DNA from: a virus
Virus record (IMG/VR): IMGVR_UViG_3300048592_000344
Coordinates: 1 to 49,005 of that record
Strand: one strand, 5' to 3'
Length of the DNA: 49,005 nucleotides
Shown here: positions 1,916 to 43,372 of the stretch, one piece after another
Position numbering within the stretch: position 1 is the stretch's first letter
Layout of the letters: every line of letters starts with the position of its first letter
The notes under the pieces: generated by a model
Database searches by the model: none
The model's input: the letters and a program-made list of their open reading frames with translations, nothing else
Told to the model about the DNA's origin: nothing
Translations under genes and position numbers: made by a program

Positions 1916-1944
1916 ACCATGACATGAAACGGGGCGAAAGTCAA
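1916..1944 (-). promoter_or_regulatory. Putative leftward sigma70-type promoter
   Basis: On the minus strand a TTGACT -35 box (1944-1939) is followed by a 17-nt spacer and CATGGT (1921-1916) as a weak -10 box. The block from 1930 to 1977 is nearly identical (43 of 48) to the block around the promoter at 39975-40003, including a GATATGG half-site at the same distance upstream. It would drive the small early genes from 1850 leftward. Confidence 0.6.
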
Positions 1945-2138
1945 GAACTATTCGCGGGCTATGTCAGTTTGATATGGTCGATGCTAGGCGCGGCTGCTAG
2001 GGTGGTGTCAGGGCTTGGACACTGGTGGATGGCGGTGGCAACGGGCGGTGGCAACTGCGCGTAGCGCATAGCCCTGGTGGGTGTCCCTGACGGGTCCGGG
2101 ATTGGGGATTTTGGGGGCGAAGGCATATTGTGTGGTTC

Positions 2139-2173
2139 CGTATGGCTCTTACCATCGTGGTAAAGTATGGCTC
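2139..2173. promoter_or_regulatory. 35-nt operator-like element A
   Basis: Contains GTATGGCTC, then TTACCA-TCG-TGGTAA, then AGTATGGCTC. The inner 15 nt is a near-perfect palindrome. It belongs to a family with sites at 2260, 4176, 34269 and 40030 and forms the left arm of the 272-bp palindrome. Confidence 0.65.
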
Positions 2174-2259
2174 TAACTGAAGCGCCGTGGCTTGTTTTTT
2201 CTGAAAGGAGAAAAAAAAAAAAAAAAAAAACTCATAAAGAACAAAACGAAAACACAACT

Positions 2260-2294
2260 GGGCCATACGTTACCATCGTGGTAACAGCCATACG
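2260..2294. promoter_or_regulatory. 35-nt operator-like element B
   Basis: This is a mirror copy of element A: GGCCATACG, TTACCATCGTGGTAA, then CAGCCATACG. It has the same inner 15-nt palindrome and an inverted orientation relative to A about the A20 tract. Confidence 0.65.
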
Positions 2295-2352
2295 GAATGA
2301 CACACATGGGCAACTCCGCGAAAAGTGCCAATCTCGGGCATGTCAGGGACAC

Positions 2353-2957: not shown

Positions 2958-3632
2958 TTAGATGTCGCCCAGCATTTCGTCAAGATCGCCCGCAAGGGTG
3001 GCGCTTGCCGCTTGGCGGCGGGCCAATTCTTCCCGCGCTTCCGCCATGATGTCGCGCGCGCCATTGCCTGCCTGATTGTCAATCCAAGCAATGACCGCTT
3101 TGTCATCCCAAGTCGGCCGCTTGTCGTTCTCCTTGAAGAACGCCGCCACCTTGGGCGAAAGGGCCACGAAGGCAGCTGCCGTTGGCCTCGTCCCCGGCAT
3201 TGCCGCCGAAAGCGCCTTGGCGAAAATCGCCTTGAGAGCATCCTTGGCAATATCCAGCGCCAAGCTTTGCTCCTCGGTCCACTTGGTGCTGGTGCCGTCA
3301 CCGGCAACGCGAACCTGCCATTGCCCGGCAAGCAAGGCGTCAACCGCCTTTTGCATCGCAGCCAGCGTAGCATCCTTCACCGCCTTGTCATTGGCGGCGG
3401 CAAAGTCGCGCAGCTGGTCCCGGCTTGGCTTTGGCGTGCCTTCGGGCTTCTTGTCCGCCCAAAGCTGCCCGACAACGCCGCTTGCGGCGTCAGCCACCTT
3501 TTGCTTGATCCCATGCGCAATGACCTGCCGCAGCACGTCATGTGGGATTGCCGCCACGTCCACCGGCACGATGACATCCCGCGACTCCACGTTGATTGTG
3601 GTCGCGGGGACTGAGAGATTGAAGCTTTCCAT
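2958..3632 (-). CDS. Hypothetical early protein, 224 aa
   Basis: The largest gene of the repeat. It starts MESFNLSVPATTINVESRDV, with a short beta region, then a long Ala/Lys-rich helical body, a WTEEQSLALDIAKDALKAI segment and an acidic C-terminus (DLDEMLGDI). The start at 3632 has GGAGTCC seven bases upstream; an in-frame ATG four codons earlier would put that site inside the gene. Its abundance-type composition and position next to the earliest promoter suggest an early host-interaction or DNA-binding role, but nothing proves it. Confidence 0.75.
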   Translation of the reverse strand: MESFNLSVPATTINVESRDVIVPVDVAAIPHDVLRQVIAHGIKQKVADAASGVVGQLWADKKPEGTPKPSRDQLRDFAAANDKAVKDATLAAMQKAVDALLAGQWQVRVAGDGTSTKWTEEQSLALDIAKDALKAIFAKALSAAMPGTRPTAAAFVALSPKVAAFFKENDKRPTWDDKAVIAWIDNQAGNGARDIMAEAREELARRQAASATLAGDLDEMLGDI

Positions 3633-4054: not shown

Positions 4055-4175
4055 GGCAACTGGCTAGGAAACGCCCCCACCCGTCTCGAAGCACGCATCT
4101 GGGGGGTGGGTTCGACGGTGCCGGGGCCTCGCGCGCCGGGGGAGGCCCTTCGCAAATCTCTATCTATTCTGGAAT

Positions 4176-4210
4176 AGTATGGCTCTTACCATGGTGGAAT
4201 GAGCCATACT
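4176..4210. promoter_or_regulatory. 35-nt operator-like element C
   Basis: The most symmetric member of the family. Perfect 10-bp outer arms AGTATGGCTC and GAGCCATACT flank TTACCATGGTGGAA. It sits 72 bp before the small terminase start, where it could control the whole rightward arm. Confidence 0.7.
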
Positions 4211-4281: not shown

Positions 4282-4839
4282 ATGTCACTAGGACTTCGCA
4301 CGACTGGAAGGGCCAGCAAGGCTGTCACCGCAGAACTCGAAAGGGAACTGGGGTTGGACGACGTGGCGACGCTGCTGGAGGAGAAGGGGGTAGCAGCGCC
4401 CCAGATCGTTCACATCCGCGAGCGGCACCATGCGCTGGCGCGGCTGATAGCGGAGGGGAAGAAACCCGGCGAGGCTGCCATTCTCTGCCGCTACACGCAA
4501 AGTCGGATGTCGGTGCTGCTGGGCGATCCAGCTTTTCAAGAGCTTGTCGCCCACTACCGCTCGGTCGTGAACGTGGAGTTTGTGGACTTTCAAAAGAAGT
4601 TGGCCGACCTAGCCCTGGACGCCGCAAGCATTTTGCAGGATCGGATGGAAGAGAAGCCGGAGGACCTTTCTGACGCGCTGCTGCTGCAGGTGGTGCAAGT
4701 TGGCGCGGATAGAACCGGGCACGGCCCCTCGCAAAAAACCGAGGTCAATGTTAAAATTGGGCTGGCAGGCAGGATTGCTAGCGCCCACGAGCGGGCACTT
4801 CGGGCTCGCGATATCACTCCAAAGGAGCTTGAAGGATGA
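4282..4839 (+). CDS. terS: Terminase small subunit (putative)
   Basis: 185 aa. An N-terminal helical part is followed by a helix-turn-helix-like segment at about residues 57-80 (GEAAILCRYTQSRMSVLLGD), then a long helical oligomerisation region and a basic tail. This is the usual design of small terminases, which bind the packaging site and hand DNA to the large subunit. The ATG at 4282 has GAGGA upstream; the longer open frame extends into the control region and is unlikely. It is the first gene of the rightward arm, and its stop overlaps the next start (ATGA). The role is inferred from the HTH and position, because the large subunit lies 2.9 kb downstream rather than adjacent. Confidence 0.7.
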   Translation: MSLGLRTTGRASKAVTAELERELGLDDVATLLEEKGVAAPQIVHIRERHHALARLIAEGKKPGEAAILCRYTQSRMSVLLGDPAFQELVAHYRSVVNVEFVDFQKKLADLALDAASILQDRMEEKPEDLSDALLLQVVQVGADRTGHGPSQKTEVNVKIGLAGRIASAHERALRARDITPKELEG

Positions 4840-5057
4840 CTGTTGTTAACCTCACCCGCACGGAATGGACCCAGCTTAACTCAGCTGCAAAGCGGCTGCA
4901 AGTTGTCGGTGGTCCGATCCTAGTCTCGAACAGCAACTCGCCGGTTGCCAACGACTGGCTGACCCTCCACGAGGGGGCTATCTTGGACGTTACAGCAAAC
5001 CAGTTCGGTCAAGCAGCTGGAACAAAACCGACTTGGGTGGTCGCACTAGATGCGTAA
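4836..5057 (+). CDS. Small hypothetical (virion-associated?) protein, 73 aa
   Basis: Beta-rich small protein (MTVVNLTRTE start, GPILVSNSNSPVANDWL centre, ending TWVVALDA). It overlaps the terminase gene by 4 nt and the spike gene by 8 nt. No family is recognised. Composition and neighbours suggest a minor structural or spike-associated protein. Confidence 0.6.
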   Translation: MTVVNLTRTEWTQLNSAAKRLQVVGGPILVSNSNSPVANDWLTLHEGAILDVTANQFGQAAGTKPTWVVALDA

Positions 5058-7578
5058 CTGGAACAGGGATAGGAAATATCGAGTTGTTCTGCCCACGGTT
5101 CCAACGGAGCCACTGATTGGCGAGACACTTCCTCTCATCATCACGCAGCTTACTGCGCCGACCTTCGGCCCCTACACGTCCGGCGACACGCCAGAGGACG
5201 CCTACACGGCGGGCAGCTATACCAGCACGGCAGGCACGATCTCCAGCATCGTCCCGTCCTGGGAGATCAACGGCAGCCCGGCCTTGGGGACGGATGTGCT
5301 GGCTTCTGGCGATGTGGTCGGCCTTTCGGTCCTGGTGACGGACAGCGCGGCGAACCAGCGGACGTTCAGCTATGGCGTGGCCGATCCTGCCGCCGGTATA
5401 CCTTCCGGCTTCGTCATCGTCAGCAGCAACCCCGCCGACAATGCGACGGGCGTCCTCAATACGGTCAACCCGACGATCACCTTCAGCGCCCCCGTTGTTC
5501 CGGGGACCGGGCTTATCACGCTGCGTCAGAATATTTCGGGCGTATGGTCCGACCTCGAAACCTTCGACATGGCAACGGAAGCGGTGCTTGCCACCGACGC
5601 AGCGGGTGCCGGGGCGGGTCAGGTCTACTTTAGCGGACCGACGATCTACATCCATCCATCGACCATCCTTATCGAAGGCCGTGAATATGCAATCCGCATC
5701 GCTGCGACTGCCATTGACGATATCAACGCCAACAGCTTCGCCGGGATTGCAAACGATACCACGCTGAGCTTCACCACGGCGGCGCAACCGTTTGTTGCCC
5801 GGTTCGGCCCAACCGGCACGCAGCCTGCGAACAGCGGCAACTTCGACACCAACCTCTACACCAGCACGCCCCCGGCAAATGGCACTTATGGCAACTTCAG
5901 CGTCACGGCAGGGGTGATCTCTTGCAACGGATCGCAGACCGTGGGCACCTATTCTGTCGGCGGCTATCCGGTCGAGGTGCTGAACGACTTCCGGGCGGTG
6001 ACTACCCTGACCGAGATGAATGCCGCCATTGGATTCAGCGGGCCGACCAGGACGCTTTGCATCAGGGAGGGGACGCCATATTCGTGGGACAACCGCACAG
6101 TCGGCAACTTTGGCCGCCGGGTAAACCTTGACTTCCTGACGATCCTCGGCGACGGGCCTGACGTTCGGGCTAACAAGTGGAACACGTCCTACGACAGCCG
6201 GGCGCACTTCATCCGCGTCATCCTCGGCGCGGTGCGCCGGTTTACCTGCCGCAACCTTCGCATTGTTCCGAACGGCGGTCAGACGGACGCCTGCGTCAAC
6301 TTGGCGCTGCTTTCGGGTGGCGGCGTAGACCTGGGCGACGTGAACTTTGACAAGTGCCTTTTCATCGCCCATCGCCCCAATCCGAATGGGAACTACACGG
6401 CGGGCACCACCAGCTTTGGCGGCAACGGCTTCGCATTCTTTGCGGGCATCGCCCCCATCGGCCTGACCCTGACCGACAACGTGGCTATGGGCGGGCTGCG
6501 GAACTACCGGATCGCTGCGTCGGCATACGTTGAAATGATCGGCAACGAAAGCTGGTTGTCCTATGAGGACGGCTATCAGTATAGCCTGACAACCCCGACG
6601 ATCACCGCCGGGTGCCTTATGGGTATCGGGCTTGCAAAGCCCGGCGACAGCGGCAACCCGCACGGCGACGGCATTCAAATTCAGCCCGGCGTTCCGGCGC
6701 AGAACCACATCATTGAGGCCTGCGGCATGTTCGCGGGCGACCATCGCGGGCGCACATCAAACCAAGCCTATTTCCTGGACAACTCCACAGATGGCTACCT
6801 TGCATGGATGCGGGATAGCCTTCTGATTGACGACCCGACTTGGACCTTCTCAATCACGAACACCCAAGGCTCGATCATGGAGCATCTGGCCTGGGCGCCG
6901 ACGCCTTACACGACCCTGCCTGACAACACGAACGGCATCAGGTTCGGAAACTTGACCCCCGTCACCGGGACCAACATTCTTCGCAACTGCGTTGAAATCG
7001 TCGGCGGCGGTGTTAATGCGTCCGTCACCCGAACCGGCAACGTCCAGCCCCTGAACTACCTCGCGGCGGATTGGGAAGCGATGTATGAAGACTGGACGGT
7101 AGACCGGGAACAATACCCGTCCCTCCAGAAGATCATGGCCGATCTGCGGACCAAGGCCACAGGACCGGGCAATGGCAAGGGGCATCGCGTCACCTTCTCC
7201 GGGTCGGAAAACAGCAGCTTCGTCATTGACGGCGGAAGCCTGACCACGCCAACCCTGAGTGCGCTGACGATCACATCGACCGTGGCGGCTTCCGTCTCGG
7301 CCACCATCACGACCAACGTTCCGCTGAACCCAATCTACTTCGCCATTGTCCCGCAGGGCCAAGCGGTTGTCAGTCCGCGCGACATCAAGCGCCGTCGCGT
7401 CACGGGCGGGATCATCTGGCGCTACACCTCGGTCGGCAATGACACCTTGTCCGGCATTGTCCTGAGCGCCGCTGGGGCTGGGCTTGTGGCCGGAACCACT
7501 TACGATCTTGTCGCGGAACAGGAGAACGGCTGGACGAAGGTTTCCACCGTGGCCCGTGTCACGTTCACGGCGACCTGA
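5050..7578 (+). CDS. Large beta-helix tail spike / receptor-binding protein
   Basis: 842 aa. Residues about 1-110 form a presumed attachment region. Residues about 120-245 look like an Ig-like domain of the Big_5 type (SSNPADNATGV, ITFSAPVVPG, LSFTT). Residues about 250-700 have the short-strand, Gly/Asn-rich pattern of a right-handed parallel beta-helix, as in spikes and polysaccharide lyases. The last ~110 residues look like a fibronectin-III-type domain (TPTLSALTITST ... TYDLVAEQENGW). It probably binds or degrades surface polysaccharide. Unusually, it lies between the two terminase genes. Its GC-rich codon use differs from the flanking genes, with the shift near 5140-5160. Together with the scar ORF behind it, this suggests recent acquisition. 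No catalytic residue can be assigned. Confidence 0.75.
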   Translation: MRNWNRDRKYRVVLPTVPTEPLIGETLPLIITQLTAPTFGPYTSGDTPEDAYTAGSYTSTAGTISSIVPSWEINGSPALGTDVLASGDVVGLSVLVTDSAANQRTFSYGVADPAAGIPSGFVIVSSNPADNATGVLNTVNPTITFSAPVVPGTGLITLRQNISGVWSDLETFDMATEAVLATDAAGAGAGQVYFSGPTIYIHPSTILIEGREYAIRIAATAIDDINANSFAGIANDTTLSFTTAAQPFVARFGPTGTQPANSGNFDTNLYTSTPPANGTYGNFSVTAGVISCNGSQTVGTYSVGGYPVEVLNDFRAVTTLTEMNAAIGFSGPTRTLCIREGTPYSWDNRTVGNFGRRVNLDFLTILGDGPDVRANKWNTSYDSRAHFIRVILGAVRRFTCRNLRIVPNGGQTDACVNLALLSGGGVDLGDVNFDKCLFIAHRPNPNGNYTAGTTSFGGNGFAFFAGIAPIGLTLTDNVAMGGLRNYRIAASAYVEMIGNESWLSYEDGYQYSLTTPTITAGCLMGIGLAKPGDSGNPHGDGIQIQPGVPAQNHIIEACGMFAGDHRGRTSNQAYFLDNSTDGYLAWMRDSLLIDDPTWTFSITNTQGSIMEHLAWAPTPYTTLPDNTNGIRFGNLTPVTGTNILRNCVEIVGGGVNASVTRTGNVQPLNYLAADWEAMYEDWTVDREQYPSLQKIMADLRTKATGPGNGKGHRVTFSGSENSSFVIDGGSLTTPTLSALTITSTVAASVSATITTNVPLNPIYFAIVPQGQAVVSPRDIKRRRVTGGIIWRYTSVGNDTLSGIVLSAAGAGLVAGTTYDLVAEQENGWTKVSTVARVTFTAT

Positions 7579-18230: not shown

Positions 18231-21155
18231 ATGGCTCTTGGAACCGTTCGGGCAAGTGGTGGGCTGCAGAACCAGCTTGTCAACGATCGCTCAAGCAGCA
18301 TCATGGCGGAAGCTACCTCCGGGTTGGGTGACTCGGTCAACAGGCTGGCACAAGCAGGGGTGGGCTTTCTTGACTCTCGCACGGATATCGAGGCGGTGTA
18401 TGACCGCCGGGCTATGGCAAGCAAGGCACTGGAGTTGGACACGCAATTCCTGCAGTATCAGCAGGATCGAGCAAAAGAATTCACAGAGTATTCTCGCGGT
18501 CGTTCGGCTAACCCAGGCGGAATGACGAAAGAATATGATGCTATGCTGGCGGAGCAGGAGAAGGCGTTTCTCGAAACCGTGCCTGAGCGGCATCGGGAGG
18601 AAATGGCGGCTAAGCTGGCGAGAGACAGGGCGACCAGAGTTGGCTCGGCTTTTGCGGCAGAGCTCGAGCTGCTTGACACCGCCGACACCAACACCCTGAA
18701 CAAGGGGTTGAACACCCTTGGCTCTGGTCTGAAAGGTGGAGGGGTTTCACTTGAGGACGCCGAAGCTCAGTGGATTGAAATGGTGGAAAAGTCGGCGCTG
18801 CCGGAAATCACCAAACAAGAGTTTATTGAAAGCGGGAAGGCCACGCTGCAAGGACTGGACTTTGGCACGGCGGTGGAGCAAACCGCTCTTGGCTACGGCA
18901 GTGCTCGACAAGGAGATGACGGAGGCGACGTTGTAGCAGCGGGGCTTCTGCCCCAAGACAGGGGGGTGCTGAATGCCATCGCGGAAAACGAAGCTCCTGC
19001 TTATAACGTATGGAACGGAGGTTCCACCTTTGCGGGGTATGAAGATCACCCTGCGGCGACGAGCAAGGCGCCAGGCGAAAGCACAGCTGCTGGCCGTTAT
19101 CAGTTTATTCTTGGGACGTGGCGGGCGGCCTCCGAAAGCTATGAACGAACCTATGGAGTGAAGGTGCCGGACTTCTCCCCGGAGTGGCAGGATAGGGTTG
19201 CGCTGCACTGGGCGGAGACGCAATTCAACCGGCACTACAGCGGGGCTACGTTTAAGGATATTTTGGCAAGTGGTGATCCGCAACAGCTCCTGATCATCCG
19301 GGACGTGCTGGGCAAGCCTCGTTCGGACAACCCTAATGACCTTGAGTGGAAAGGTCTAGGGCATATGAGCGATGCTGAGTTCATCGAGATTATGACAGGG
19401 CAGAAAGGCTTTGCCGGAGGTGGGACTGGCCCGGCGCAAGGACCGAATGTCTGGACCGATCCTCGCTATGCCAATCTTTCCCTGGAGCAGAAGCAAAGCT
19501 TTGCAAATGCTGCGGCAGCTGCGGCTGAGCAGCAGAAGCAAACCATGGCGAATGAGATCAAACTGCAACGTGAAGCCATGCTCGACGGGGTGTATGAAGC
19601 TGGCTATCGCAACGACCAGAGCTTCGTCGAAAGCATGGAAAAAGCGGGGCAGTGGGACGCTGACGCTCAGGCTAGATTTAACTCTGGAAGAGAAGTCTTT
19701 CGTACCGCTGAAAGTGAAACGGCCAATGTCGGGGCGATGATTGCGGCGGGGACTCCTTTGGGCCAAGACCAACAGAAAGCCTTTGGTCGGTGGTTCGGTG
19801 CGGATAGCTTTGCTGGGATCGCAACGGGCGATGAGAAAGCCTACGCCAAGATGAAGTATGCGGTTAATCAGGCTCGGCTTTTCCCAGACGGATCGGTGGA
19901 TGCTTTCCGCGCGGCCATGGGGGTGCCTGAGACGCAGACGCAAGCACTTGCTTTTCTCGCGGCGGCCCATGCTGGCGACAGCACGTTGCTTCGCAGAAGC
20001 GGCTTTAGCCAGGAGGATGTGGCGCAGGTGCAGCTGTTTAAGCAGCTGGCGGAGCGGAGAGGAAGCATTGACACTGCGGTGGAAGACTTCCGCGCAGCTA
20101 CAGACGTGCAAGCTACCTCCGGCAAAACTCCAGAACAGTTGTCGAGCGAGGCTAGCAAGCTTTTCTCAACTAGTTTCCCAACTGTTGATGAGGTGGCAAA
20201 ACGGTTTGACGGCTGGTTTGTTTCCGAGCCGAACAGTAAGATCAACCCAAATACGGAAAGTCAGCTGATGCTGGACGCAAGCACCGCTTTCCAAGACGGC
20301 TACATGCGCTATGGCACTGAGGAAGCTGCTACCGCGTATATGGAAGCGTATCTGGATAAGATTTGGGGGACAAGTCAGACGGTGGTGCCACAGACGGCGT
20401 GGGGTCCTGGCGGCTTTGTTGCGGGAACGCAGCAGAACCCTGTGCTCATGCGCCACCCTCCGGAGAACCATTACGTTGGGGCGGATGGAGACCTTGGTTT
20501 CCTCTACTCCGCCATCAGCGAATACGCTGCCGCTGGCGGCGCCTCCCCCTACGGGGCAGTGCTGATCCCGGATGAGCAGACGGACCGTGAGGTCAGAGAA
20601 GGAAAGCTCCCGACTTACAAAGTGCTTGGCATGGGAGAGTTTGGCGAAGCCATTGTCCTGGAGGGAAGGTTCGGTGGACCTGAACTGCAATCTGGGCAAG
20701 ATGCTATGATGTCGGAAGAAGCACTGCGGAAGAACGCGGTGAGTAAGGTCTCAGCGAACGAACGGCAAGTGCTGGAGCTGGATGGAAAGATTGCCAAGGC
20801 CAAAGCTATGGGGCAAGCGGATGTTGTGAACGAACTGGAGTTGGAGAAGTCCCGCTTCGTTCAGCAACGAGATGCGGCGAAGTTGGCGGCGCAAGAGCTT
20901 GGCTACCTTACCGTGGTGCCGCAGGGCGAAGCGGATGAAACGGTGATTAATAACGCTGTGACCATGCTTGGAACGGCGATGCAGCAAGACCCTGCTATGT
21001 CGCAACGGGTAACGCAGTTGGCCAAGAAGCACAAGGGTATGTCGCCGGATGAGGCGAATAAGCTGGCGCTGGCTGAGGTCGTCGAAAAAGAAATGCGGAT
21101 CACGCCGGAAGATGCGCTGAAGGTGGTGGAACTTTACCTGGGAGCAAATGAATGA
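18231..21155 (+). CDS. Internal virion protein C (gp15-like) with embedded muralytic domain
   Basis: 974 aa ejection protein. Residues 1-235 are helical. Residues about 240-375 resemble the lambda R / GH104 transglycosylase fold: VLNAIAENEAP with probable catalytic E254, then FAGYEDHP, TAAGRYQFILGTW at 286-298 and a helical end. The remaining ~600 residues are helical with coiled-coil-like parts. It would cut peptidoglycan locally while the DNA channel forms. T7 carries its muralytic domain on gp16 instead. It overlaps the next gene by ATGA. Confidence 0.8.
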   Translation: MALGTVRASGGLQNQLVNDRSSSIMAEATSGLGDSVNRLAQAGVGFLDSRTDIEAVYDRRAMASKALELDTQFLQYQQDRAKEFTEYSRGRSANPGGMTKEYDAMLAEQEKAFLETVPERHREEMAAKLARDRATRVGSAFAAELELLDTADTNTLNKGLNTLGSGLKGGGVSLEDAEAQWIEMVEKSALPEITKQEFIESGKATLQGLDFGTAVEQTALGYGSARQGDDGGDVVAAGLLPQDRGVLNAIAENEAPAYNVWNGGSTFAGYEDHPAATSKAPGESTAAGRYQFILGTWRAASESYERTYGVKVPDFSPEWQDRVALHWAETQFNRHYSGATFKDILASGDPQQLLIIRDVLGKPRSDNPNDLEWKGLGHMSDAEFIEIMTGQKGFAGGGTGPAQGPNVWTDPRYANLSLEQKQSFANAAAAAAEQQKQTMANEIKLQREAMLDGVYEAGYRNDQSFVESMEKAGQWDADAQARFNSGREVFRTAESETANVGAMIAAGTPLGQDQQKAFGRWFGADSFAGIATGDEKAYAKMKYAVNQARLFPDGSVDAFRAAMGVPETQTQALAFLAAAHAGDSTLLRRSGFSQEDVAQVQLFKQLAERRGSIDTAVEDFRAATDVQATSGKTPEQLSSEASKLFSTSFPTVDEVAKRFDGWFVSEPNSKINPNTESQLMLDASTAFQDGYMRYGTEEAATAYMEAYLDKIWGTSQTVVPQTAWGPGGFVAGTQQNPVLMRHPPENHYVGADGDLGFLYSAISEYAAAGGASPYGAVLIPDEQTDREVREGKLPTYKVLGMGEFGEAIVLEGRFGGPELQSGQDAMMSEEALRKNAVSKVSANERQVLELDGKIAKAKAMGQADVVNELELEKSRFVQQRDAAKLAAQELGYLTVVPQGEADETVINNAVTMLGTAMQQDPAMSQRVTQLAKKHKGMSPDEANKLALAEVVEKEMRITPEDALKVVELYLGANE

Positions 21156-24100
21156 ACGACATTTTCAAAAGGCTGACGCTTCCGGGGGCTGACGCAGCTG
21201 AGCTCAAGCCCAGCTTTGTCGAGACCATCGGCTCCGCTTTCAATCTCGAGAACGATGTTGCCAACCTCTACGCGCATCTGAACAAGCCGGTGTTTCAGCC
21301 CGATCCTACCTTCAACTTCATGTCGGAATTTAAGAAGCGTCAGCTGCCGGTGGATTGGATGGTGCCACTGGCTGGCTCGCAATCGGTGCAGGAATTTGAC
21401 ACCACGCTGTCCCGGATGCAGAAGGAGTATCAAGATCGGGCGGTGCTTGCGGCGAGCGGGTGGAAGGGGACTGCAGCGGCGTTTGCGGCGGGAATGCTGT
21501 CTCCGACTGTGTTCATTCCTATTGCCGGGCAGGCGAGAGGAGCGAAAGGGATGTCGCAAATTCTGGCGCTTGCGGCTGCTGGGGCAACGGCGCAGAATGG
21601 CGCGCTTTTCCTGAACCAGGAGATAAGGTCGGAAGCGGAGCTCTATGCCGGAATTGCGCTAGACACAGCTCTGCTTGGACTGATGGGGGCGGCATATCTC
21701 CGGATGACGAGACCAGCTCGGGCGCAGGTGCAGGCAGCTATCACGCTTAACCAGAAAAAAGTGGACGTGCCGGTTGGTGAACCTGATCTTCCAATTTTGC
21801 ACGAGCAGTCAGTTCGGGTGGAAGCACCAACTGCTGCTGAAGTAAAAATGGAAGCAAGAGCTGCTGGTATTCGTGATCCTGAGCAAGTCGCGGAAATGAT
21901 GGATGAAGCGGAGCCGATGACATACGTTCCGCTGAAGGATCGGGCACTTACGATTGGTCAGCCCAAGCGTGTCAAAGCCAAGGACATCGAGACGCAGATG
22001 GCCTATGGCGGAAGCTACCTCGAGGCGCCTGTGGCCGAAGATGTTATGGCTCGATTTGTCAAAGTTCCAGTGGGGTCTGGAGGCAAGTGGTTTGTCGGGG
22101 GCGAGTATGCTATCACCCTTCACCGGGCAGACGGAACTGAGATCACACTTCCGCTTGGGGCTGTTGACACTCACATGAAGGCAGGCAGAACTCCCTATTT
22201 CAAGGAAGCGGAACTGAAAGAAGCCCTCGCCAACGGTGAACTTGACGACCAGCTTTACACTATGCTTGAAGCGGCGGAAGACCCTGGTATGGCTCGTTCC
22301 ACGATGGAAACGCCCATATCCAAACCTGCCGACAATGGCAAAGCTGCAGACACCCAAGCGATCGGCGCCGCACCCAGCCGGACGCGGAACACTCTCGGCC
22401 CGAAGCCAGCGCCGAATAGGGTTAGCCAGGCCCTGATGAATATGCTGGGGAAAATGTCACCCAGCTATCGCATGTTCAGCCAGCGGCTATTTCCCTCGCT
22501 TCGCAACGGTATTGCCAAGTTAGATAACTCCGGCATCCAGCAAGCGGGGCTGGAACAGATGCAACCGTCGGCAGACGGCGGCACGGTGATTGAGCGTATC
22601 CGAGCCTATGACGCCTATGTCGTCTCGTTCGCCAAGAAGCTTGACCAGCACTACTACGACTATGTGTATGACGGAGCCAAAGGCGCTGACATGAACATGG
22701 CGGCGTTCACACAAATCCGTTCTCAGTTTGGGAAGATACCGCCAGGCAAACTTAACTGGACGGAGTATAAAGCTGCAGTGTTTGAGCAGCTGAACACAGG
22801 GGAGATTAAACCCGAGCTTGCTCCGGCTGTGCAGGAGTTCAAGAAGTTTTTCGAGTTCTACAACAATCGGCACAAGCAATATTTGGCGGAGATGGAAGCG
22901 AAGGGAATTGAGGTCGAACCGCTGTATAAGGAACTGCTGGACGATGACCTTGGACCGGACGTGAAGAACTACGCCCACCATATCTTTGACCAGCAGAAGC
23001 TGATGGAGAACTTCTCTCAGTTCCTCGAGGACTTCGGCAAGGCTTATGAAAAGTCGCTGCAAGAAAGCTTTGACAAGGGAAGGAAGACTTATCTCAAGCG
23101 GAAGGAGAAGCTGGAGTTTGAGCAGCTGATCAGTCAGCTTGACGACGCCGAGATCAGCACCCGGCTTGCGGACACGGAAGCGGAGATTGAGTTTCTCGAT
23201 GAAACGCCGGAGCTCCAGGGCTTCAACACCCAACGCCTTGCTCTGAATAAGCAGGCGAAGGAGGAGGGTTGGCCCAAGGAACAGCTGAAAGCAGCGCAAA
23301 AAGACTTGGCCGATAGCATCACTGCCGACACTAGACTTCTGTTGGATGAGCGGAAGCGGTTGCTTGGCGTGGCCAGGGCGTTGAAGAAGTTTGGCGGGGA
23401 CGCCACCGAACGGACAACTAAGCTGCGCGCGGAGCTTGACAGGACCAACGAACTTATCGCGGAGATGTTCCGGACGGAGCTGCCCAAGATCGCAGCGGTT
23501 GACCTGAATATTGAGAAGATACAGCTGAAGGGGGATAAGGCCCTCGCCCCGCTCACTCGCCAGATGACAAAGGTCGTCAAGGAGATGGAAAAGCGGACGG
23601 CGGCTATGCAGAAGTTGATCGCCAGCAAGCGGAAGAACCCAGTGTCTGGGGCAAGGTTAGATGAGCAAATGGCTCGATCGCTTGAGCGCCATCAACGCTT
23701 GCTTGATCGGATTAAAGCGGTGGAGGGACAACAGGTTGCGCTGGACCAGCGGCTGCGTGAACTGCAGTTGCTTCGGGAGGATGTAATCTCTGACGCTACG
23801 CTGCTGGTTCGGTCGAGGGCGGTTCGTGCTGAGGCAACGGAAGAAAAGCTGGAAGCAGCTGCTGCGAAGATTATTCCGCCGGAAGAAAAGCTGCGGATGC
23901 GGGATCAGATTGGAAGAGAGCTGGAAGACCTTGAGGCGGACTTCCGAAACACCTGGAGTTTGCGCGGAGAAAATTCAGGTGACCCTATTGCCACGACCAC
24001 ACCCAACTTCAGGGAGAAGGCGTTGGAAATGGCGACGATGCTGCATCAAAAACTGACCAACACAGAGGTGGAACTGTCTCCCGCCTACCATGCTCTGCGA

Positions 24101-25837
24101 CAAGATGCTCGCGGCGCCGAACTCATGCGCGTGATGAACATCCCATTCGGCATGAAAAAGAAGTGGCTGATTAATGATGTGGAGCTGGTGACCAGGGCCT
24201 ATGACCGGACAATGGCACCGGACCTGGAGATTTGGCGAGCCTTCGACGGCAGCGTTAACGGTAAGTCCTTGCTGGGTGAGATGGCGCAAGAAGCCACGGC
24301 GCTGATGACTCGGATCGGTTCGGCCAAGTATGTCAAGCTGCCGAAAGGATGGGTGGACAAATCCGCTGCTTTTGCAGATAAGGTGAAGAAGCGTCTGGAT
24401 GACTTCGGAGCTATGGACGAACTGCATCTGGAGGAGAAAAACTTCTCCGACACGATGGAGGAGGGGTTTGTGGAACTGACCCCGGAGCTTCGGACGCAGC
24501 TTGGCAACTATGTATCCAACGCTACCAAGGCTATGACTCGGGACTTTGACGTGGCGATCCAGCGGCTTCGGATGACGCGGGGTGTGCCAAGGGATGGAAC
24601 TGATCCGTGGTGGAGAGCAGGGCGGTTTATCAAAAACGTCAACGTGGTGACGATGATGGGGGGAGTTGTCACCTCGTCTATCTCGGACGTTGCGAGGCCG
24701 GTTTGGCAGCACGGCGTTGGCCGGGTGTTTCGTCACGGCTGGGCTCCCTTCATTAACAAGCTTGACCCGAAGGCGAAGGAGTTCCGGCTGAAGTCAAAGG
24801 AGATCAATAGGCAGATTGGGCTTAACCTCGAGCCGGTGCTGCATAGCCGGGCGCAGGCGGTGTTTGACCTGGCGGAAGATAGCATTGGTCGGACGAGGCT
24901 GGAACGCGGCGCTAACGTGCTGGCGCAGAAGATGGGGCTTGTGGCATTGTATGACTTCTGGACAGCTGGAATGAAAACCATTGCTGGGAACGTGACTCAT
25001 GCTACGATGGCAGCGTATGTTCCGGCGGTGGCGAAAGCGTGGAGGGAGGGAGCGGAGTTCTCAGGCGACCTCTTGCAAATGCGGACGTATCTGCGGAACC
25101 TTGGTTTGTCCGACCTGGACATTCATAAGATCGCCCTGCAGATGGAGCGGCCAGACGGCGTGGAAGTTTTCTCCAACGGTGGGGTGCTGCCGAACGTTCA
25201 TCTGTGGGATGATCCCGCTGCCTATCAGGCATACCAGGCCGCCGTGCTTGGGGAGGTAAACAAACTTATCGTAACACCAGGGCTTGAGCGTCCAAACTGG
25301 ACCGACGAAAACATGGGCTTCTCCATGCTAGCCCAGTTTAAAAGCTTCACCTTCGCCAGCAACTCTCGCATGGCAATGTCGGCGCTCCAGGGCAACGACC
25401 CATACCTCATGCAAGGCATCGCCTTTTCCCTTGCCTTGGGGGCGCTTTCCTACTATACTTACGCAATGACAGTTGGAGGTAAAACTCTCGAAACCGCAAA
25501 TCAGATGGAACCTGACAAGTGGATTTGGGAGGCGGTCAAGCGGAGTGGGATACTCGGGGCTGCCAGCATCGCAGCGGATGTTGGGGCTGAAATGCCGTTG
25601 ATTACCGGGGATGATACTCCGGTTATTTTCCGGAGGCCTGGTGGGATGCTTGGAACGTTGCTCGGCCCGACCTATTCCCAGGCGGAAAGAATGGCGGGTG
25701 TGCTCACCAACCTCGACGCGGAAGATCAATCGCGCAACATGAGAGCGATCCGGCAGATGATCGTGCCGTATCAAAACCATTTCATCTTCCGGCAGCTCTT
25801 CGACCGTGTGGGTGACGCAATGTATGGAGACAACTGA
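21152..25837 (+). CDS. Internal virion protein D (gp16-like)
   Basis: 1561 aa, the largest gene. It has hydrophobic segments near residues 108-195 (AAAFAAGMLSPTVFIPIAG, LDTALLGLMGAAYL), a very long charged helical and coiled-coil region at about 620-930, and a mixed C-terminal half. Order (gp14, gp15, gp16), size and helical content fit the T7 gp16 ejection protein that extends the tail across the envelope. I see no lytic transglycosylase motif at its N-terminus, consistent with that activity sitting on the gp15-like protein. Confidence 0.8.
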   Translation: MNDIFKRLTLPGADAAELKPSFVETIGSAFNLENDVANLYAHLNKPVFQPDPTFNFMSEFKKRQLPVDWMVPLAGSQSVQEFDTTLSRMQKEYQDRAVLAASGWKGTAAAFAAGMLSPTVFIPIAGQARGAKGMSQILALAAAGATAQNGALFLNQEIRSEAELYAGIALDTALLGLMGAAYLRMTRPARAQVQAAITLNQKKVDVPVGEPDLPILHEQSVRVEAPTAAEVKMEARAAGIRDPEQVAEMMDEAEPMTYVPLKDRALTIGQPKRVKAKDIETQMAYGGSYLEAPVAEDVMARFVKVPVGSGGKWFVGGEYAITLHRADGTEITLPLGAVDTHMKAGRTPYFKEAELKEALANGELDDQLYTMLEAAEDPGMARSTMETPISKPADNGKAADTQAIGAAPSRTRNTLGPKPAPNRVSQALMNMLGKMSPSYRMFSQRLFPSLRNGIAKLDNSGIQQAGLEQMQPSADGGTVIERIRAYDAYVVSFAKKLDQHYYDYVYDGAKGADMNMAAFTQIRSQFGKIPPGKLNWTEYKAAVFEQLNTGEIKPELAPAVQEFKKFFEFYNNRHKQYLAEMEAKGIEVEPLYKELLDDDLGPDVKNYAHHIFDQQKLMENFSQFLEDFGKAYEKSLQESFDKGRKTYLKRKEKLEFEQLISQLDDAEISTRLADTEAEIEFLDETPELQGFNTQRLALNKQAKEEGWPKEQLKAAQKDLADSITADTRLLLDERKRLLGVARALKKFGGDATERTTKLRAELDRTNELIAEMFRTELPKIAAVDLNIEKIQLKGDKALAPLTRQMTKVVKEMEKRTAAMQKLIASKRKNPVSGARLDEQMARSLERHQRLLDRIKAVEGQQVALDQRLRELQLLREDVISDATLLVRSRAVRAEATEEKLEAAAAKIIPPEEKLRMRDQIGRELEDLEADFRNTWSLRGENSGDPIATTTPNFREKALEMATMLHQKLTNTEVELSPAYHALRQDARGAELMRVMNIPFGMKKKWLINDVELVTRAYDRTMAPDLEIWRAFDGSVNGKSLLGEMAQEATALMTRIGSAKYVKLPKGWVDKSAAFADKVKKRLDDFGAMDELHLEEKNFSDTMEEGFVELTPELRTQLGNYVSNATKAMTRDFDVAIQRLRMTRGVPRDGTDPWWRAGRFIKNVNVVTMMGGVVTSSISDVARPVWQHGVGRVFRHGWAPFINKLDPKAKEFRLKSKEINRQIGLNLEPVLHSRAQAVFDLAEDSIGRTRLERGANVLAQKMGLVALYDFWTAGMKTIAGNVTHATMAAYVPAVAKAWREGAEFSGDLLQMRTYLRNLGLSDLDIHKIALQMERPDGVEVFSNGGVLPNVHLWDDPAAYQAYQAAVLGEVNKLIVTPGLERPNWTDENMGFSMLAQFKSFTFASNSRMAMSALQGNDPYLMQGIAFSLALGALSYYTYAMTVGGKTLETANQMEPDKWIWEAVKRSGILGAASIAADVGAEMPLITGDDTPVIFRRPGGMLGTLLGPTYSQAERMAGVLTNLDAEDQSRNMRAIRQMIVPYQNHFIFRQLFDRVGDAMYGDN

Positions 25838-30947: not shown

Positions 30948-32555
30948 TTACAACTGCCGGATTGGGGTGTTTAGTATATTCTCGAAGGTTGCGAGGTGCT
31001 TGGGCGGTTTACGAGTTTCTTCCCCGGTCCACTTCTTTAGACCGAAAGGATTGTCCTCATCCGCCATACCGTAGTTCCAGCCTGCCTTAACGCCGTGGGG
31101 GATTGTGAATTCTCTCCCTTTAGCGAGGGGTAGAATGACGCGGAGCTGCTCAAGGATGATTGGGATGAGGGTTTGGATTTGGTCTTGTTTGACCATGAGG
31201 ACGAGGGAGTCGTGGACCTGGAGAAGGAAGCGGATGGGGAGGTTGTGAAGGTTGCGATAGCGCTGGAGGCGGATGGCACCACGGTTAATGAACTCGCCGG
31301 TGGTGGATTGAGGAGAGTAAGCGATGGCTGCGTTGTGCGTGGGGACTGCGTTGGGATCGTTCCAGAAGTAGCGGCGACGACCCCAAGGAGTTATGAGGCG
31401 ACGCTCCTCGCGAACCTGGCGAATGGTTTCTTGTTGCCAAGCAGGGATGACGGGGAATGCGCCGAAGTAATTCCGCTGGAAGTCAACGATGGTGGAGACT
31501 GGGAGATGGGCGTGCATAGCCATGGTGTTTGGCTGGCCGAGGTAGTTGGTGCCATGTCCGAGTTTCTTGGCCAGGTCGCGGTAGCTCAGCTCGCGATAGG
31601 CGTTCATCTCCGCCACCGCTTTGCAAAGCTTGGGGTCGAGAGACTCGGGCCAAGGTAGCTTAGGCCAGGCCATGCGGACGACAGTGGTGTGCAGGTCTCC
31701 GCTTTCGCAAGCGTCGAGGTAGCTGCCGGCCCACGCTTCGCCATGGCTCTCGACAAACCAGTTCCAGCCGATTGCTCCGACACCACGGCTATCGCCCTGC
31801 TCCAGGTCGATATCAACAATCATCCAGCCGGGGTCAGCGACAAACTGGTTCTTCATCTTGCCGGTGACGTTTTGGAGATTGGTGCCTGTGCCGGTGTCGG
31901 AGAAGCTGGAGTTGAGTCGGCCTGTCGTTGTCCCAGCGATGTTGAAAGAACAACGGATGTGGTTGTCTGGGTCAAGTTTGGTCCGAAGAAAGCCAATGGC
32001 TTTGCTTGCATCTCGCATGGCGAGAATAAAGTTGACAAAGACCTCGGCAAAGTAGTAGCTGCGGAAGCCTTCGAGGACCTCACGATCGGTTGTGACCTTA
32101 GCCTCATCCATACCCTTCTTCCGCTTCTTCTTCTCGGGAATTTGAAGCACGGTGTGGAAGAGGTATTGCACGTCCTTGGGAGAAGCAGGGTTGATGGGAA
32201 GGGCGGTGCGTCCGCCACTGCGTTTTGTGCGATCGGCAGGGATGCCGAGGCCCTCGACGCATAAGCGGGTGAAGCCTGCCTCGAGACGGGCAAGCTGCTC
32301 CTCGTAATGGGTTAGGGCCTTGCGCCGTTGGGCCAGGTCAACGGGAAGCCCCTCCAACATCATCTCAAGAATAACGGGAATGGTGTCGAGGGATGTTTGG
32401 TAGGTTGCCCGACTAACCTCGTCGAGCTGCGGCTCGATGACATTGATGACATCGTAGGTGACGCAACAATCTAGAGCGCAGTATGTCCAATAGATTTCGC
32501 TGTCCGTCATGGATGCGGCGGTTTCCTCTAGCGTTGTTGTATCGATGATAATCAT
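30948..32555 (-). CDS. polA: DNA polymerase I (family A), polymerase fragment with Exo III
   Basis: 535 aa. Residues 20-33 (IYWTYCALDCCVTY) carry the Exo III motif Y25-x3-D29 of a DEDDy 3'-5' exonuclease, whose Exo I and II are on the separate gene at 33236-34252. The palm and fingers follow: TGRLNS (211-216), motif A VDIDLEQGD (D248/D250), motif B RDLAKKLGHGTNYLG (326-340) and motif C LLQVHDSLV (H448, D449). All polymerase catalytic residues are present, so the fragment should be active, probably with the exonuclease fragment bound. No thumb or exo core precedes it. Confidence 0.9.
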   Translation of the reverse strand: MIIIDTTTLEETAASMTDSEIYWTYCALDCCVTYDVINVIEPQLDEVSRATYQTSLDTIPVILEMMLEGLPVDLAQRRKALTHYEEQLARLEAGFTRLCVEGLGIPADRTKRSGGRTALPINPASPKDVQYLFHTVLQIPEKKKRKKGMDEAKVTTDREVLEGFRSYYFAEVFVNFILAMRDASKAIGFLRTKLDPDNHIRCSFNIAGTTTGRLNSSFSDTGTGTNLQNVTGKMKNQFVADPGWMIVDIDLEQGDSRGVGAIGWNWFVESHGEAWAGSYLDACESGDLHTTVVRMAWPKLPWPESLDPKLCKAVAEMNAYRELSYRDLAKKLGHGTNYLGQPNTMAMHAHLPVSTIVDFQRNYFGAFPVIPAWQQETIRQVREERRLITPWGRRRYFWNDPNAVPTHNAAIAYSPQSTTGEFINRGAIRLQRYRNLHNLPIRFLLQVHDSLVLMVKQDQIQTLIPIILEQLRVILPLAKGREFTIPHGVKAGWNYGMADEDNPFGLKKWTGEETRKPPKHLATFENILNTPIRQL

Positions 32556-32893
32556 CTGCTGATCTCGGGGGGCTGGAGGTAGTTGACTGGTTTGCCTAGC
32601 TGCTTGGCCAGAGCAATTTCATATTGCACGCCTTTGGAAATGTCCCAACCGTCAAGCTTGAGCACCATCAAGCTGGTGCAGGCGGTGAGCATGGCGTCGT
32701 TGAAGTTCTTCCAGCTTTTGTAATCCGTGCCGATCATCTTCTCCATGCTCTTGCCGTAGACGATGGGGGAGAACATGGCCTCGCCGTTTTTAAGCCAGTT
32801 AGCCGTGACTATGCGAGCGAGCTCATAGCGAAGCTCACGGACGGCTGGGTTGGGGTGTGAGTAGGGTGAAGCGAGATAGATCAAAGGAGCCAT
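32552..32893 (-). CDS. DUF1937-type protein (nucleoside deoxyribosyltransferase-like)
   Basis: 113 aa. The start IYLASPYSHPNPAVRELRYE and the FSPIVYGKSM / SLMVLKLDGWDISKGVQYEI blocks match the DUF1937 family, which shares the fold of nucleoside 2-deoxyribosyltransferases. A nucleotide-salvage role or ligand binding is likely. It lies between the two polymerase halves, overlapping the polymerase start by ATGA. Confidence 0.75.
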   Translation of the reverse strand: MAPLIYLASPYSHPNPAVRELRYELARIVTANWLKNGEAMFSPIVYGKSMEKMIGTDYKSWKNFNDAMLTACTSLMVLKLDGWDISKGVQYEIALAKQLGKPVNYLQPPEISR

Positions 32894-33234
32894 GCGCGGT
32901 CTCTCCCGGTGTCGAGGAAAAGATGGGAAGGGATTTGGTAGCGTTCCATAATGGGGGAGAACTCTACGATCCAGTTTTCATACGGCACCTTGGTCGTGTT
33001 GACGCAGTGCATGAGATACTTCCGGACGAGATACTTGAGGAAGTTGACTGGATCGGGGCGGGCCTCGAACGAGGCGAGGGGGAACTTGCAGTCAAGGTCA
33101 AAGGTTCCGACCTCTCCGGTTTGAGTGTCCCGCATCTTCCTGGTGTAGATTTTGAAGAGGGTGAACTCTTGGTCCAGCCCTGCCTTGCTCCACGCTACGT
33201 AATCGCTTAGAAGCTCTGGAATATCCTCTGTCAT
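32881..33234 (-). CDS. Hypothetical protein between polymerase halves, 117 aa
   Basis: Starts MTEDIPELLSDYVAWSKAGL at 33234, one base after the stop of the exonuclease gene; the longer frame would overlap that gene extensively. Helical N-terminus, FTLFKIYTRKMRDTQTG beta region, C-terminal WIVEFSPIMERYQIPS. No family is recognised. It overlaps the DUF1937 gene by 13 nt. Confidence 0.7.
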   Translation of the reverse strand: MTEDIPELLSDYVAWSKAGLDQEFTLFKIYTRKMRDTQTGEVGTFDLDCKFPLASFEARPDPVNFLKYLVRKYLMHCVNTTKVPYENWIVEFSPIMERYQIPSHLFLDTGRDRAWLL

Positions 33235-33235
33235 T

Positions 33236-34252
33236 TCATTCGTCCTCTTTCTTGCCGCTGCGATCCGCAGCCCGTCTCTTGTGCATGAACTTCCAAGCCA
33301 GCTCCTCGGAATAGATGGAGGCCAGGAAGCCAAGGCCCTTGTCCATCTCAATCTGAAGAGCGTGGTGCATTAGCATGGTGTCATCGCGCCAACTCTTTGC
33401 GGTGATCCCCATAAAACGCCAAAGATATTGAACGTCAAATTGAAAATTCTGGCCAAACACGCGCTTCCCCTCGTGGTTGATGCAGCGCTCGACAAACTTC
33501 CACGCGATGCGTTCCTCGCGGGGAGTGACCCAATAGTTGCCGGTGGCTTTCTCCTGGTCGAAAAAGGGGATGACAATGGCGCGGTCAGGGGAGGGAGCGA
33601 TGCCGACACAGGTGATGAGTGGGTGCTTGGTCTCGATGTCCACGGACAAGCCGGGGGAGGGGAGGATGTAGTCCTGCCAAAAGGTTTCAAGGTCCTCTAG
33701 GCTGGGACGGAGGTGAATGAACCGGCGTGGGCGGATTATCTCGGGGAAGGATGACTGCCGCTTTGCCTTCATCAGGTCCATGATGAGGATGGGTTCCTGC
33801 TTGATCTCGGCAAGCACCGCGCGAGGGTGTAGGACAGGGAGGACCTTTCCCCCACCGCAGCTGGCGATGGAGGTAGTGATGCGACCGCGAGCGAATTTTA
33901 GTTTGGTCTGGTGGGTTAGCAGAAGCAGCGGCAGCTCCCCACACGCTATGATTACGTTGGGGCGGAGGCGGCGAATGGTGGTGTAGAGGTTATGGATTTC
34001 CGGACCGAACTCAGCGCGGAGATAGGCCTTGCGCCCGACAGCTGGGATGCCTGTGAGTGCGCCGCTCTTGCTTTCCTGGGTGAAAGCATAAAAGGAAGCG
34101 GCAGGGGTGTTAAGGCAATTAAGCCAAGTGCACTCGTCGGGGACGATCCCCGCCCGGCGAAGCTGGCCCTTGAAATATCCCCAAAAGCCATTAGTGAAGG
34201 GACGACCAGCTTCGTTAAGAGAAGGGTAGTCGGACAGGATAAGAATTGACAT
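33236..34252 (-). CDS. UDG-like + 3'-5' exonuclease fragment of DNA polymerase
   Basis: 338 aa. Residues 1-165 resemble the uracil-DNA glycosylase superfamily domain fused to some phage polymerases such as that of SPO1: ILSDYPSLNEAG, RPNVIIACGELPL and VLPVLHPRAVL. The usual GEAPG-type motif is SDYPS, so catalysis is doubtful. Residues 200-325 hold the exonuclease core: Exo I LSVDIETK (D205, E207), Exo II VFGQNFQFDVQYL (D273) and DDTMLMHHAL. Exo III is missing here and found on 30948-32555. The gene ends in a lysine/glutamate tail exactly where a fused polymerase would continue. Confidence 0.85.
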   Translation of the reverse strand: MSILILSDYPSLNEAGRPFTNGFWGYFKGQLRRAGIVPDECTWLNCLNTPAASFYAFTQESKSGALTGIPAVGRKAYLRAEFGPEIHNLYTTIRRLRPNVIIACGELPLLLLTHQTKLKFARGRITTSIASCGGGKVLPVLHPRAVLAEIKQEPILIMDLMKAKRQSSFPEIIRPRRFIHLRPSLEDLETFWQDYILPSPGLSVDIETKHPLITCVGIAPSPDRAIVIPFFDQEKATGNYWVTPREERIAWKFVERCINHEGKRVFGQNFQFDVQYLWRFMGITAKSWRDDTMLMHHALQIEMDKGLGFLASIYSEELAWKFMHKRRAADRSGKKEDE

Positions 34253-34268: not shown

Positions 34269-34303
34269 GATATGGTTTATTCCATGATGGAAACAGCCAT
34301 ATC
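34269..34303. promoter_or_regulatory. 35-nt operator-like element D
   Basis: Outer arms GATATGG / CCATATC flank the core ATTCCATGATGGAA. It fills most of the short gap between the ParB-methyltransferase stop and the exonuclease start, so it lies where a promoter or operator for the polymerase operon would be. Confidence 0.65.
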
Positions 34304-35639: not shown

Positions 35640-35646
35640 GGTTTCC

Positions 35647-35946
35647 TCAAACATCAAAAAGGGGGGTAAGCGAGCCTTCGAGGTCAGAGATTAACCCGCT
35701 GAGCTCGGAAAGGCTGATGGTGAGGGAGGAGATGTGTCCGTTCCCTTTGTAGTGGACGCGACCGCCATCTTCTACAAGCTCCGCTTTCGGTTGTGGACCG
35801 TAAAGCTGCTCTGCCTTGCGCTGGGAGCGGAGAAGTAAGGTGTGCAGACGGTCCTTACAGGCGTCCACAGTGTGCATGTATGCGGGGAAATTGCTTCCCT
35901 CTAAGTCAGCTTCAACAGCTGCGATGTTTGCGAAAGCCGGGCTCAT
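35647..35946 (-). CDS. Hypothetical protein, 99 aa
   Basis: Helical N-terminal half (VDACKDRLHTLLLRSQRKAEQ) and a beta/helix C-terminal half with a short acidic end. No family is recognised. It lies directly before the ParB-methyltransferase gene, separated by 7 bp, so it is probably cotranscribed. Confidence 0.7.
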   Translation of the reverse strand: MSPAFANIAAVEADLEGSNFPAYMHTVDACKDRLHTLLLRSQRKAEQLYGPQPKAELVEDGGRVHYKGNGHISSLTISLSELSGLISDLEGSLTPLFDV

Positions 35947-39359: not shown

Positions 39360-39899
39360 TTAGTGAGCCGGTTCGGGCGAAGCCTTGGCCAGGTCGCCCA
39401 GGTCCAGGCCGTCGAGGGCGTCGGTAGCGGAAGCTTCGCGGGCCTTGACCCGGCGCTTGGCCTCCTTGAGAACGTCCTCGCGTTCGGCCATCTCCGCGAT
39501 CTTGGCGTCGTAGGCTTCCTCGCCGATCTTCTCCTTGATCGCCTTGACGGTGAGCTTCTTGGAAGCGGCCCAATCCGCGAACATGCCGCGAGCGATGCGG
39601 AGAGCCTCGACCTCGACGGGATCGGTGGACTTGCGCCCGCCGCCGACAGAAGCGAGGGTGAAGACGTAGGCGGCGTCATACTCAGCGACAGCAGCGGCGA
39701 TGGTATCGACAGTCGGTTCGCCCTCTTTTGCAGTGCCCTCGACGGCGGCTTTCACTTTCGAGGCCATGTTGTTCCGAACGTTCTCGGCACGGACCTGGTT
39801 CAGCGCCTTGGCCTCGGCCTCGGTGATGACATGGCCAGCAAGGTAGGGTTGAAGGACCGGGAACATCTGCCCGGCGATGGTGATCTCTTTCGTGGTCAT
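39360..39899 (-). CDS. Hypothetical early protein, 179 aa
   Basis: Start at 39899 (MTTKEITIAGQMFPVLQPYL) has GAGGAG eight bases upstream; the longer frame runs into the promoter. The N-terminal part is helical (HVITEAEAKALNQVRAENV), then SVGGGRKSTDPVEVEALRIA and a long charged helix. With its own promoter, strong ribosome site and terminator it looks like an abundantly made monocistronic product, perhaps DNA-binding. No family is recognised. Confidence 0.75.
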   Translation of the reverse strand: MTTKEITIAGQMFPVLQPYLAGHVITEAEAKALNQVRAENVRNNMASKVKAAVEGTAKEGEPTVDTIAAAVAEYDAAYVFTLASVGGGRKSTDPVEVEALRIARGMFADWAASKKLTVKAIKEKIGEEAYDAKIAEMAEREDVLKEAKRRVKAREASATDALDGLDLGDLAKASPEPAH

Positions 39900-39974
39900 G
39901 GTAAGCTCCTCGTGATGTTGCGCGGGATTGCGCGGGGGATAGCGGCGGTCGGTGGCCAATGGGGCCATGCGACC

Positions 39975-40029: not shown

Positions 40030-40064
40030 GATATGGGCGTTTTCACGGTGGTAAGAGCCGGCTC
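40030..40064. promoter_or_regulatory. 35-nt operator-like element E
   Basis: Starts GATATGGGCG, core TTTTCACGGTGGTAA, ends GAGCCGGCTC. It is the most diverged member. It lies 26 bp upstream of the -35 box at 40003-39998, an activator-like place. Confidence 0.55.
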
Positions 40065-43257: not shown

Positions 43258-43266
43258 GGTGGACTC

Positions 43267-43371: not shown

Positions 43372-43372
43372 G

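Follow-up and report, generated by a model that had tools for sequence, protein, structure and literature searches.

The window, by which we mean the whole stretch of DNA analyzed, is the complete IMG/VR record IMGVR_UViG_3300048592_000344 (49,005 bases). Its ends repeat at an offset of 45,456, giving a map of ∼45.46 kb for either a circle or a terminally redundant genome. The repeat is exact from about position 22; when positions 1-22 are set against 45456-45478, a poly-C start mismatches the other copy, which is probably an assembly end artifact; the mismatched first bases could account for the linear label that IMG/VR gives the record. Rightward genes extend from a small-terminase-like gene (terS) at 4282, so labeled from its position and its similarity to the annotation of Caulobacter phage Kuura, through a podovirus structural set (terminase, portal, capsid, and tail) to 29318; leftward genes extend from 3912, across the record end, to 29315. 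The leftward genes carry the replication set: a DUF3987 primase/helicase, a PolA polymerase, a Sak4-like protein, an exonuclease, and a UvrD-like helicase. PolA is split in the window (30948-34252, minus strand), its polymerase part (30948-32555) and exonuclease/UDG-like part (33236-34252) being separate genes, versus a single 2.3-kb gene in the relative ctMlz233. An 842-aa protein at 5050-7578, considered as a polymerase, was ruled out as such and is an Ig-domain fiber-like protein.

A large imperfect palindrome (the element) lies between leftward genes, ∼2 kb ahead of the rightward operon, and both of its neighbors are transcribed leftward. It is present twice in the record because the record ends repeat. 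Its parts are as follows.

2081-2352, no strand: the whole imperfect palindrome, with 91-nt arms that are 74% complementary and an axis at 2216.5
47537-47808, no strand: terminal duplicate of the element, a second copy via the end repeat of the record
2211-2230, plus strand: A20 tract, the sole A/T run of at least 8 nt on the circular map
2081-2091, no strand: outer arm end GTGTCCCTGAC, with an exact mirror partner at 2342-2352 (11 nt)
2140-2173, plus strand: left dyad, with boxes GTATGGCTC at 2140-2148 and 2165-2173 (direct) and core TTACCATCGTGGTAA at 2149-2163
2260-2293, minus strand: right dyad, with boxes at 2260-2268 and 2285-2293 and core at 2270-2284

Between the element and the terminase gene, window positions 2958-3632 (minus strand) encode protein X, a fast-evolving family encoded at this place in many relatives (37 ORFs). 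Its helices are confidently predicted, and searches of Pfam, PHROG, PDB, BFVD, and folds gave no match; its acidic tail raised the suspicion of a single-strand binding protein, which none of the Pfam, PHROG, and fold searches supported.

The initial annotation described a 272-bp palindrome with three arm pairs on one axis, and both observations hold. Mirror matches about 2216.5 occur at 76 of 136 positions (ungapped; 34 are expected at 25%), making this the best center of the genome; the next nonduplicate center has 58 matches, and the best centers of 20 first-order Markov genomes reach 56 to 60. The outer 25 nt of the arms match at 21 of 25 positions, an exact 12-nt mirror pair lies at 2136-2147/2286-2297, and the two copies of the 15-nt core TTACCATCGTGGTAA are symmetric about the axis. 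The core gives 12/15 mirror matches, with its central 3 nt in direct orientation, and scores this well because it is itself palindromic. Mirroring is confined to the arms, and the region near the axis is not mirrored. The palindrome had been described as centered on A20; the axis indeed falls inside the tract, but 4 nt off its middle. No credible ORF lies within 2081-2352, consistent with the earlier description of the element as gene-free. The G-rich flank also described there is genuine on the right side in the window but is a weak trend across relatives, and it was rejected as a family feature.

Relatives were gathered by searching viral contigs with an alignment of five terminase-like proteins, which yielded 72 loci; among 80 PolA loci, three served as handles and one as the source of an alignment row. 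An A/T run of at least 10 nt is present upstream of the terminase-like gene in 27 of the 72 loci, always as A on the strand of the gene and never twice per locus. Where at least 2.1 kb of upstream sequence is available, 22/29 loci have the tract, and many of the 45 tract-less contigs end too early. Mirror symmetry was tested in the window and 26 of the 27 loci (L042 is too short on the left), and the arms are mirrored in 24 of these 27 (p ≤ 0.008 against 500 shuffles each), with L031, L046, and L073 failing. Control A/T runs of 6 to 9 nt in the same loci never reach a score of 33 (0/202), compared with 19/27 for the long runs. We also compared 21 near-complete genomes (18 from IMG/VR, the window, Kuura, and ctMlz233), assembled from fetched pieces or records. 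An A-tract of 9 to 27 nt occurs in 17 of them, always with A on the late-gene strand, and it is the sole A/T run of at least 8 nt per genome, except for one extra A8 in G003; G013, G014, G016, and G018 have no such run. In 16 genomes, the tract lies ∼0.4 to 2.1 kb (0.43 to 2.1 by coordinates) upstream of the terminase-like gene, a lower bound where the contig is unclosed (e.g., G003 and G005); no terminase match was found in ctMlz233, which is hence outside this count. G006, a genome outside this set, has a single A10 elsewhere in its contig, and loci L084, L087, and L088 have strong palindromes centered on TATATA-type sequence in place of the A-tract.

Within one genome, the two arms align with a median score of 38, compared with 17 for left arms between genomes, and the within-genome score equals or exceeds the best between-genome score in 22/30 cases. 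The element is conserved as layout rather than as sequence. A layout kept while the letters change is what one would expect if selection acted on a protein complex with mirror symmetry, in agreement with the earlier proposal that the symmetry is kept under selection. Kuura (boxes GGGCAGTT) and ctMlz233 (boxes GGAAATGGC) have the plan of the window with different boxes, and all four genome copies of GGAAATGGC fall in the ctMlz233 element. In ungapped mirroring, the Kuura element is not the best-scoring center of its genome, so that the argument for Kuura is made by location, A-tract, and mirrored boxes. In 12/28 loci, 8-mers from the arms are found again immediately ahead of terS (36 versus 2.1 expected, with overlapping 8-mers counted apart). 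Exact-pattern searches of viral contigs gave no additional result, a terS query found no relative among GTDB genomes, and a search of open-licence papers found none on this element.

The boxes are halves of a dyad, TATGG-N21-CCATA, which is found in 12 of 23 genomes searched and absent in 11. There are 27 inverted TATGG dyad hits, 26 with a spacing of 21, one with 22, and none with 20, versus a single one across all shuffled genomes. Each genome has its own palindromic inner core. Genome-wise profiles made from 2 to 5 sites, with the shuffled maximum as the cut-off, found extra sites above that maximum, and the 31-bp dyads number one to six per genome, with six in the window; a few weak profile matches just above the shuffled maximum in G011 and G018 look like noise. 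Outside the element, the window contains the following sites.

1971-1979, minus strand: half-site GACCATATC, 26 nt upstream of TTGACT at 1939-1944 (minus strand)
4177-4209, plus strand: third dyad, ahead of the small-terminase-like gene (4282-4839), in the same place in G001 and L008
22286-22320, plus strand: fourth dyad, within virion-protein ORF 21152-25837; dyads lie at the same map place in G002, G003, G019, and G020
34269-34303, minus strand: fifth dyad, between the stop of a ParB-methyltransferase gene and the start of 33236-34252
40030-40064, minus strand: sixth dyad, degenerate, 26 nt upstream of a TTGACT promoter-like site for early gene 39360-39968

The same dyads thus stand upstream of other genes and promoters, and the label of operator-like was apt. 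Among 29 dyad sites examined, 16 start no more than 30 nt from the stop of the preceding ORF, and five share one map position inside a virion ORF of 1,329 to 1,562 codons. An RNA hairpin reading was rejected, since G-T non-pairs are not in excess over A-C (26 dyads; 18 versus 25 at dispersed sites), favoring symmetry of DNA over RNA. Ahead of the dyad at 4177, a GC-rich hairpin (GGGGCCTC...GAGGCCC, window 4100-4150) is conserved in L007, and a similar one in Kuura ends ∼16 nt before the right end of its terminal repeat. Two contigs fold back, L013 (G002) at 1-1950 and L008 at 1-170, such that inverted copies near dyads adjoin the DNA upstream of the terminase-like gene; these could be either artifacts arising via near-identical dyads or real isomers.

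Promoter context distinguishes single from paired dyads. A dyad precedes one homologous early-gene family, ∼6 to 8.5 kb left of the element, in 8/8 genomes examined, and a sigma70-like site scoring at least 9/12 follows it in seven (that of G007 scores merely 7/12), compared with 2.6% of 1,600 random positions. The gap from dyad to site is 16 or 17 nt in six genomes and 23 and 26 nt in the other two. This early protein family (window 39360-39968, minus strand; 160 to 210 aa, with an ITIAG..PY.AGH motif) lies behind the best dyad-linked promoter in all eight genomes, and its window member has no PHROG match. At the element, sites scoring at least 9/12 occur in 2/19 cases versus 26% of random windows, so that sigma70 −35/−10 hexamers are not above random DNA in these 19 elements. 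Single dyads therefore go with promoters, and paired mirrored dyads go with the A-tract. The bidirectional switch first suggested for this site fits poorly, as no divergent promoter pair was seen and the neighbors on both sides are leftward. Promoters for a phage RNA polymerase were considered as well; PF00940 was found in none of 17 genomes, but this is a weak negative, as its controls also rang in none.

The best candidate for a protein binding the dyads is the product of a gene that ends directly at one of them.

34302-35657, minus strand: fusion of ParB_N, a ParB-type helix-turn-helix (HTH), and an N6/N4 DNA methyltransferase, candidate dyad-binding protein

The dyad at 34269-34303 is directly behind its stop codon, and by family clustering 21/23 genomes encode the family. 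Sequence matches of the N-domain include Spo0J, Noc, and ParB (best 1.1e-9), and GERR and ENxxR motifs are visible in the protein. A helix-turn-helix spans 128-153 in the predicted model (pLDDT 81, pTM 0.50), which resembles Noc/ParB chains over ∼190 to 205 columns, as well as DNA adenine methyltransferases; a ParB N-domain fold with an HTH places the fusion in the ParB/Noc/KorB superfamily. The HTH is the most variable part, with pairwise identity among 19 members of 0.29 (0.20 in its recognition part), compared with 0.55 for ParB_N and 0.51 for the methyltransferase. HTH similarity correlates with inner-core similarity across 13 genomes (rho 0.30, Mantel p 0.003; the other domains give 0.21 and 0.19), and partial correlations after the other domains are 0.28 and 0.23. 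This correlation, modest and partly due to relatedness, is suggestive of cognate binding, and we consider the fusion the likely binder of the dyads. An HTH_3 protein of G004 was rejected as the regulator because it is not conserved (HTH_3 in 1/17 genomes).

The element is accompanied in relatives by a homologous replication set (DUF3987, PolA, Sak4, and exonuclease). No initiator gene was recognized, with Rep absent among the scanned neighbors, and neither the UvrD-like nor the DUF3987 helicase of the window could be linked to the boxes. Because simple cumulative-skew origin finding is confounded by codon preference, skew at 4-fold sites was split into strand and coding terms. The strand term is positive (r > 0) in 21/21 genomes (median 0.16; 0.01 in ctMlz233) and on both gene arms, and the coding term is negative. 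This fits one strand leading all round, with rightward one-way replication; a difference in codon usage between early and late genes could mimic such a bias. Detrended cumulative GC skew has a maximum, not a minimum, at the element in the window and Kuura, opposite to a canonical bidirectional origin and with no strand-composition switch of origin sign there. Plus-strand 4-fold-site GC skew climbs from approximately −0.1 to +0.55 along the genome and falls back at the element (whole map of the window; L018; window and Kuura). The strand term, together with a tract polarity that is fixed in every relative having the tract here, speaks against a symmetric bidirectional origin.

What, then, does the element do? 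That it is a chance palindrome is contradicted by the significance of the mirror test, the control runs, and the simulated genomes; an assembly artifact might be suspected from a homopolymer combined with an inverted repeat and from the fold-back contigs (G002 and L008) near such sites, but the element recurs in independent contigs of many samples, and an isolate has it too; either explanation is hardly credible. A genome-end junction, which the initial annotation did not raise, is possible but somewhat unlikely; here, the terminase or a partner would start or finish a direct terminal repeat, with the mirrored sites holding a cutting complex and the A-tract serving as a place of bending or melting. 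Among the family members found, only Kuura is an isolate, and according to the available portion of its description, PhageTerm gives it a 606-bp terminal repeat (PMC9959647). This repeat is record 1-606, equal to 43208-43813, and its left end lies ∼61 nt right of the axis at 43147, in the right arm. The element is also close ahead of terS throughout, the cumulative skew extreme falls on it in the window and Kuura, and contig ends are often nearby. Nonetheless, a virion end in the element comes from one phage, and proximity to terS is what one would expect of any packaging site. Dyads of this kind also occur far from the ends, ahead of further genes and promoters; contig ends vary in position and may reflect assembly breaks; and four relatives close circularly with end overlaps of 123 to 321 nt. 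Origin and genome-end roles can coexist in one element.

The dispersed dyads at gene junctions, 16 to 26 nt upstream of early promoter-like sites, and the half-site 26 nt before TTGACT near 1940 raise the alternative of a master transcription-control or immunity locus, in which a KorB- or stoperator-like operator cluster would act at a distance on the leftward early operon and take no part in replication. KorB is described as acting from sites that precede promoters by 4 to 10 bp or by 45 to >1,000 bp (PMC11790492, in part), phage immunity systems have genome-specific cores (PMC6550527, in part), and Kuura is reported to form turbid plaques and to have a putative repressor (PMC9959647). We find this explanation unlikely; it leaves unexplained the unique oriented A-tract, the symmetry beyond the dyads, and the lack of promoters at the element alone, and integrase and ParA are absent from all 17 genomes searched, with HTH_3 in one. 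ParB-type clamps that load and spread for segregation or DNA compaction, making the element a centromere-like or genome-organizing site, would suit the predicted ParB CTPase fold and the HTH with cognate palindromes. This is very improbable, as the ParA partner of a ParABS system (PF13614) is absent from 17 genomes in a search whose controls rang in 14/14, and a prophage state is unsupported, given the lack of integrase and of a terS relative in GTDB genomes. We think a self-addressed system of modification and initiation quite unlikely: the clamp would load on dyads, chiefly the mirrored pair, slide, and methylate its own genome, the inner core serving as a self-recognition code that evolves and that the HTH matches, and this loading would also license replication or genome processing at the A-tract.

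The reading we prefer, tentatively and from sequence comparison, is that the element is a docking hub for a regulator on mirrored dyads, most likely as the place where one-way replication begins. The docking protein would be dimeric, DNA-binding, and phage-specific, most likely the fusion at 34302-35657, and would sit on the dyads at 2140-2173 and 2260-2293, which stand in mirror about an oriented A/T-rich center, an arrangement that the single copies upstream of promoters do not have. The two bound complexes would bracket and distort the A-tract, opening it, and replication would start there, one-way and most likely rightward; at the other dyads, the same protein may tune transcription. If this is an origin, it is a one-way, boxed origin under the control of a ParB-type protein. 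A large, mostly uncultured podovirus group gains a single addressable control locus, and also a natural series for regulator/site co-evolution in which outer box, spacing, and tract polarity are fixed and the core drifts with the HTH.

Several known systems offer comparisons. The start of the Kuura repeat in the element resembles a T7-like concatemer junction, the boundary of a direct terminal repeat, but here there are regulator dyads and an oriented A-tract, and a virion end at the element is known from Kuura alone. Iteron plasmid origins have direct repeats beside a rep gene, whereas these boxes are mirrored, with Rep absent among the scanned neighbors. HSV OriS, as outlined in PMC12543377, has oppositely oriented initiator boxes with an AT-rich spacer between them, and the element likewise has inverted boxes around an A/T-rich spacer. 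Its boxes, in contrast, are 31-bp dyads with genome-specific cores that also occur at promoters, the candidate origin is likely one-way, a UL9-type helicase was not identified in the phage, and the replisome is unrelated. KorB and the OB operators of plasmid RK2 share a ParB-family CTPase and sites both near and far upstream of promoters (PMC11790492), but the protein of the phage has a DNA methyltransferase at its end, its dyad combines an outer box with an inner core, and a mirrored pair flanks an A-tract. Cluster A mycobacteriophage stoperators are also dispersed, with one main orientation and a phage-specific motif; as characterized in PMC6550527, they are asymmetric 13-bp sites with up to ∼30 per genome, whereas we observe dyad symmetry and one to six 31-bp dyads per genome. 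Finally, the available text of PMC12704722 describes phage fusions of ParB-CTPase and N6_N4-methyltransferase domains, enriched in phages and prophage regions, whose function is guessed, and names no DNA sites for them; the protein at 34302-35657 has the same domain pair. In that protein, a ParB-type HTH separates the pair, and fusions so far known mainly by domain content (PMC12704722) are offered candidate DNA sites and a testable role.
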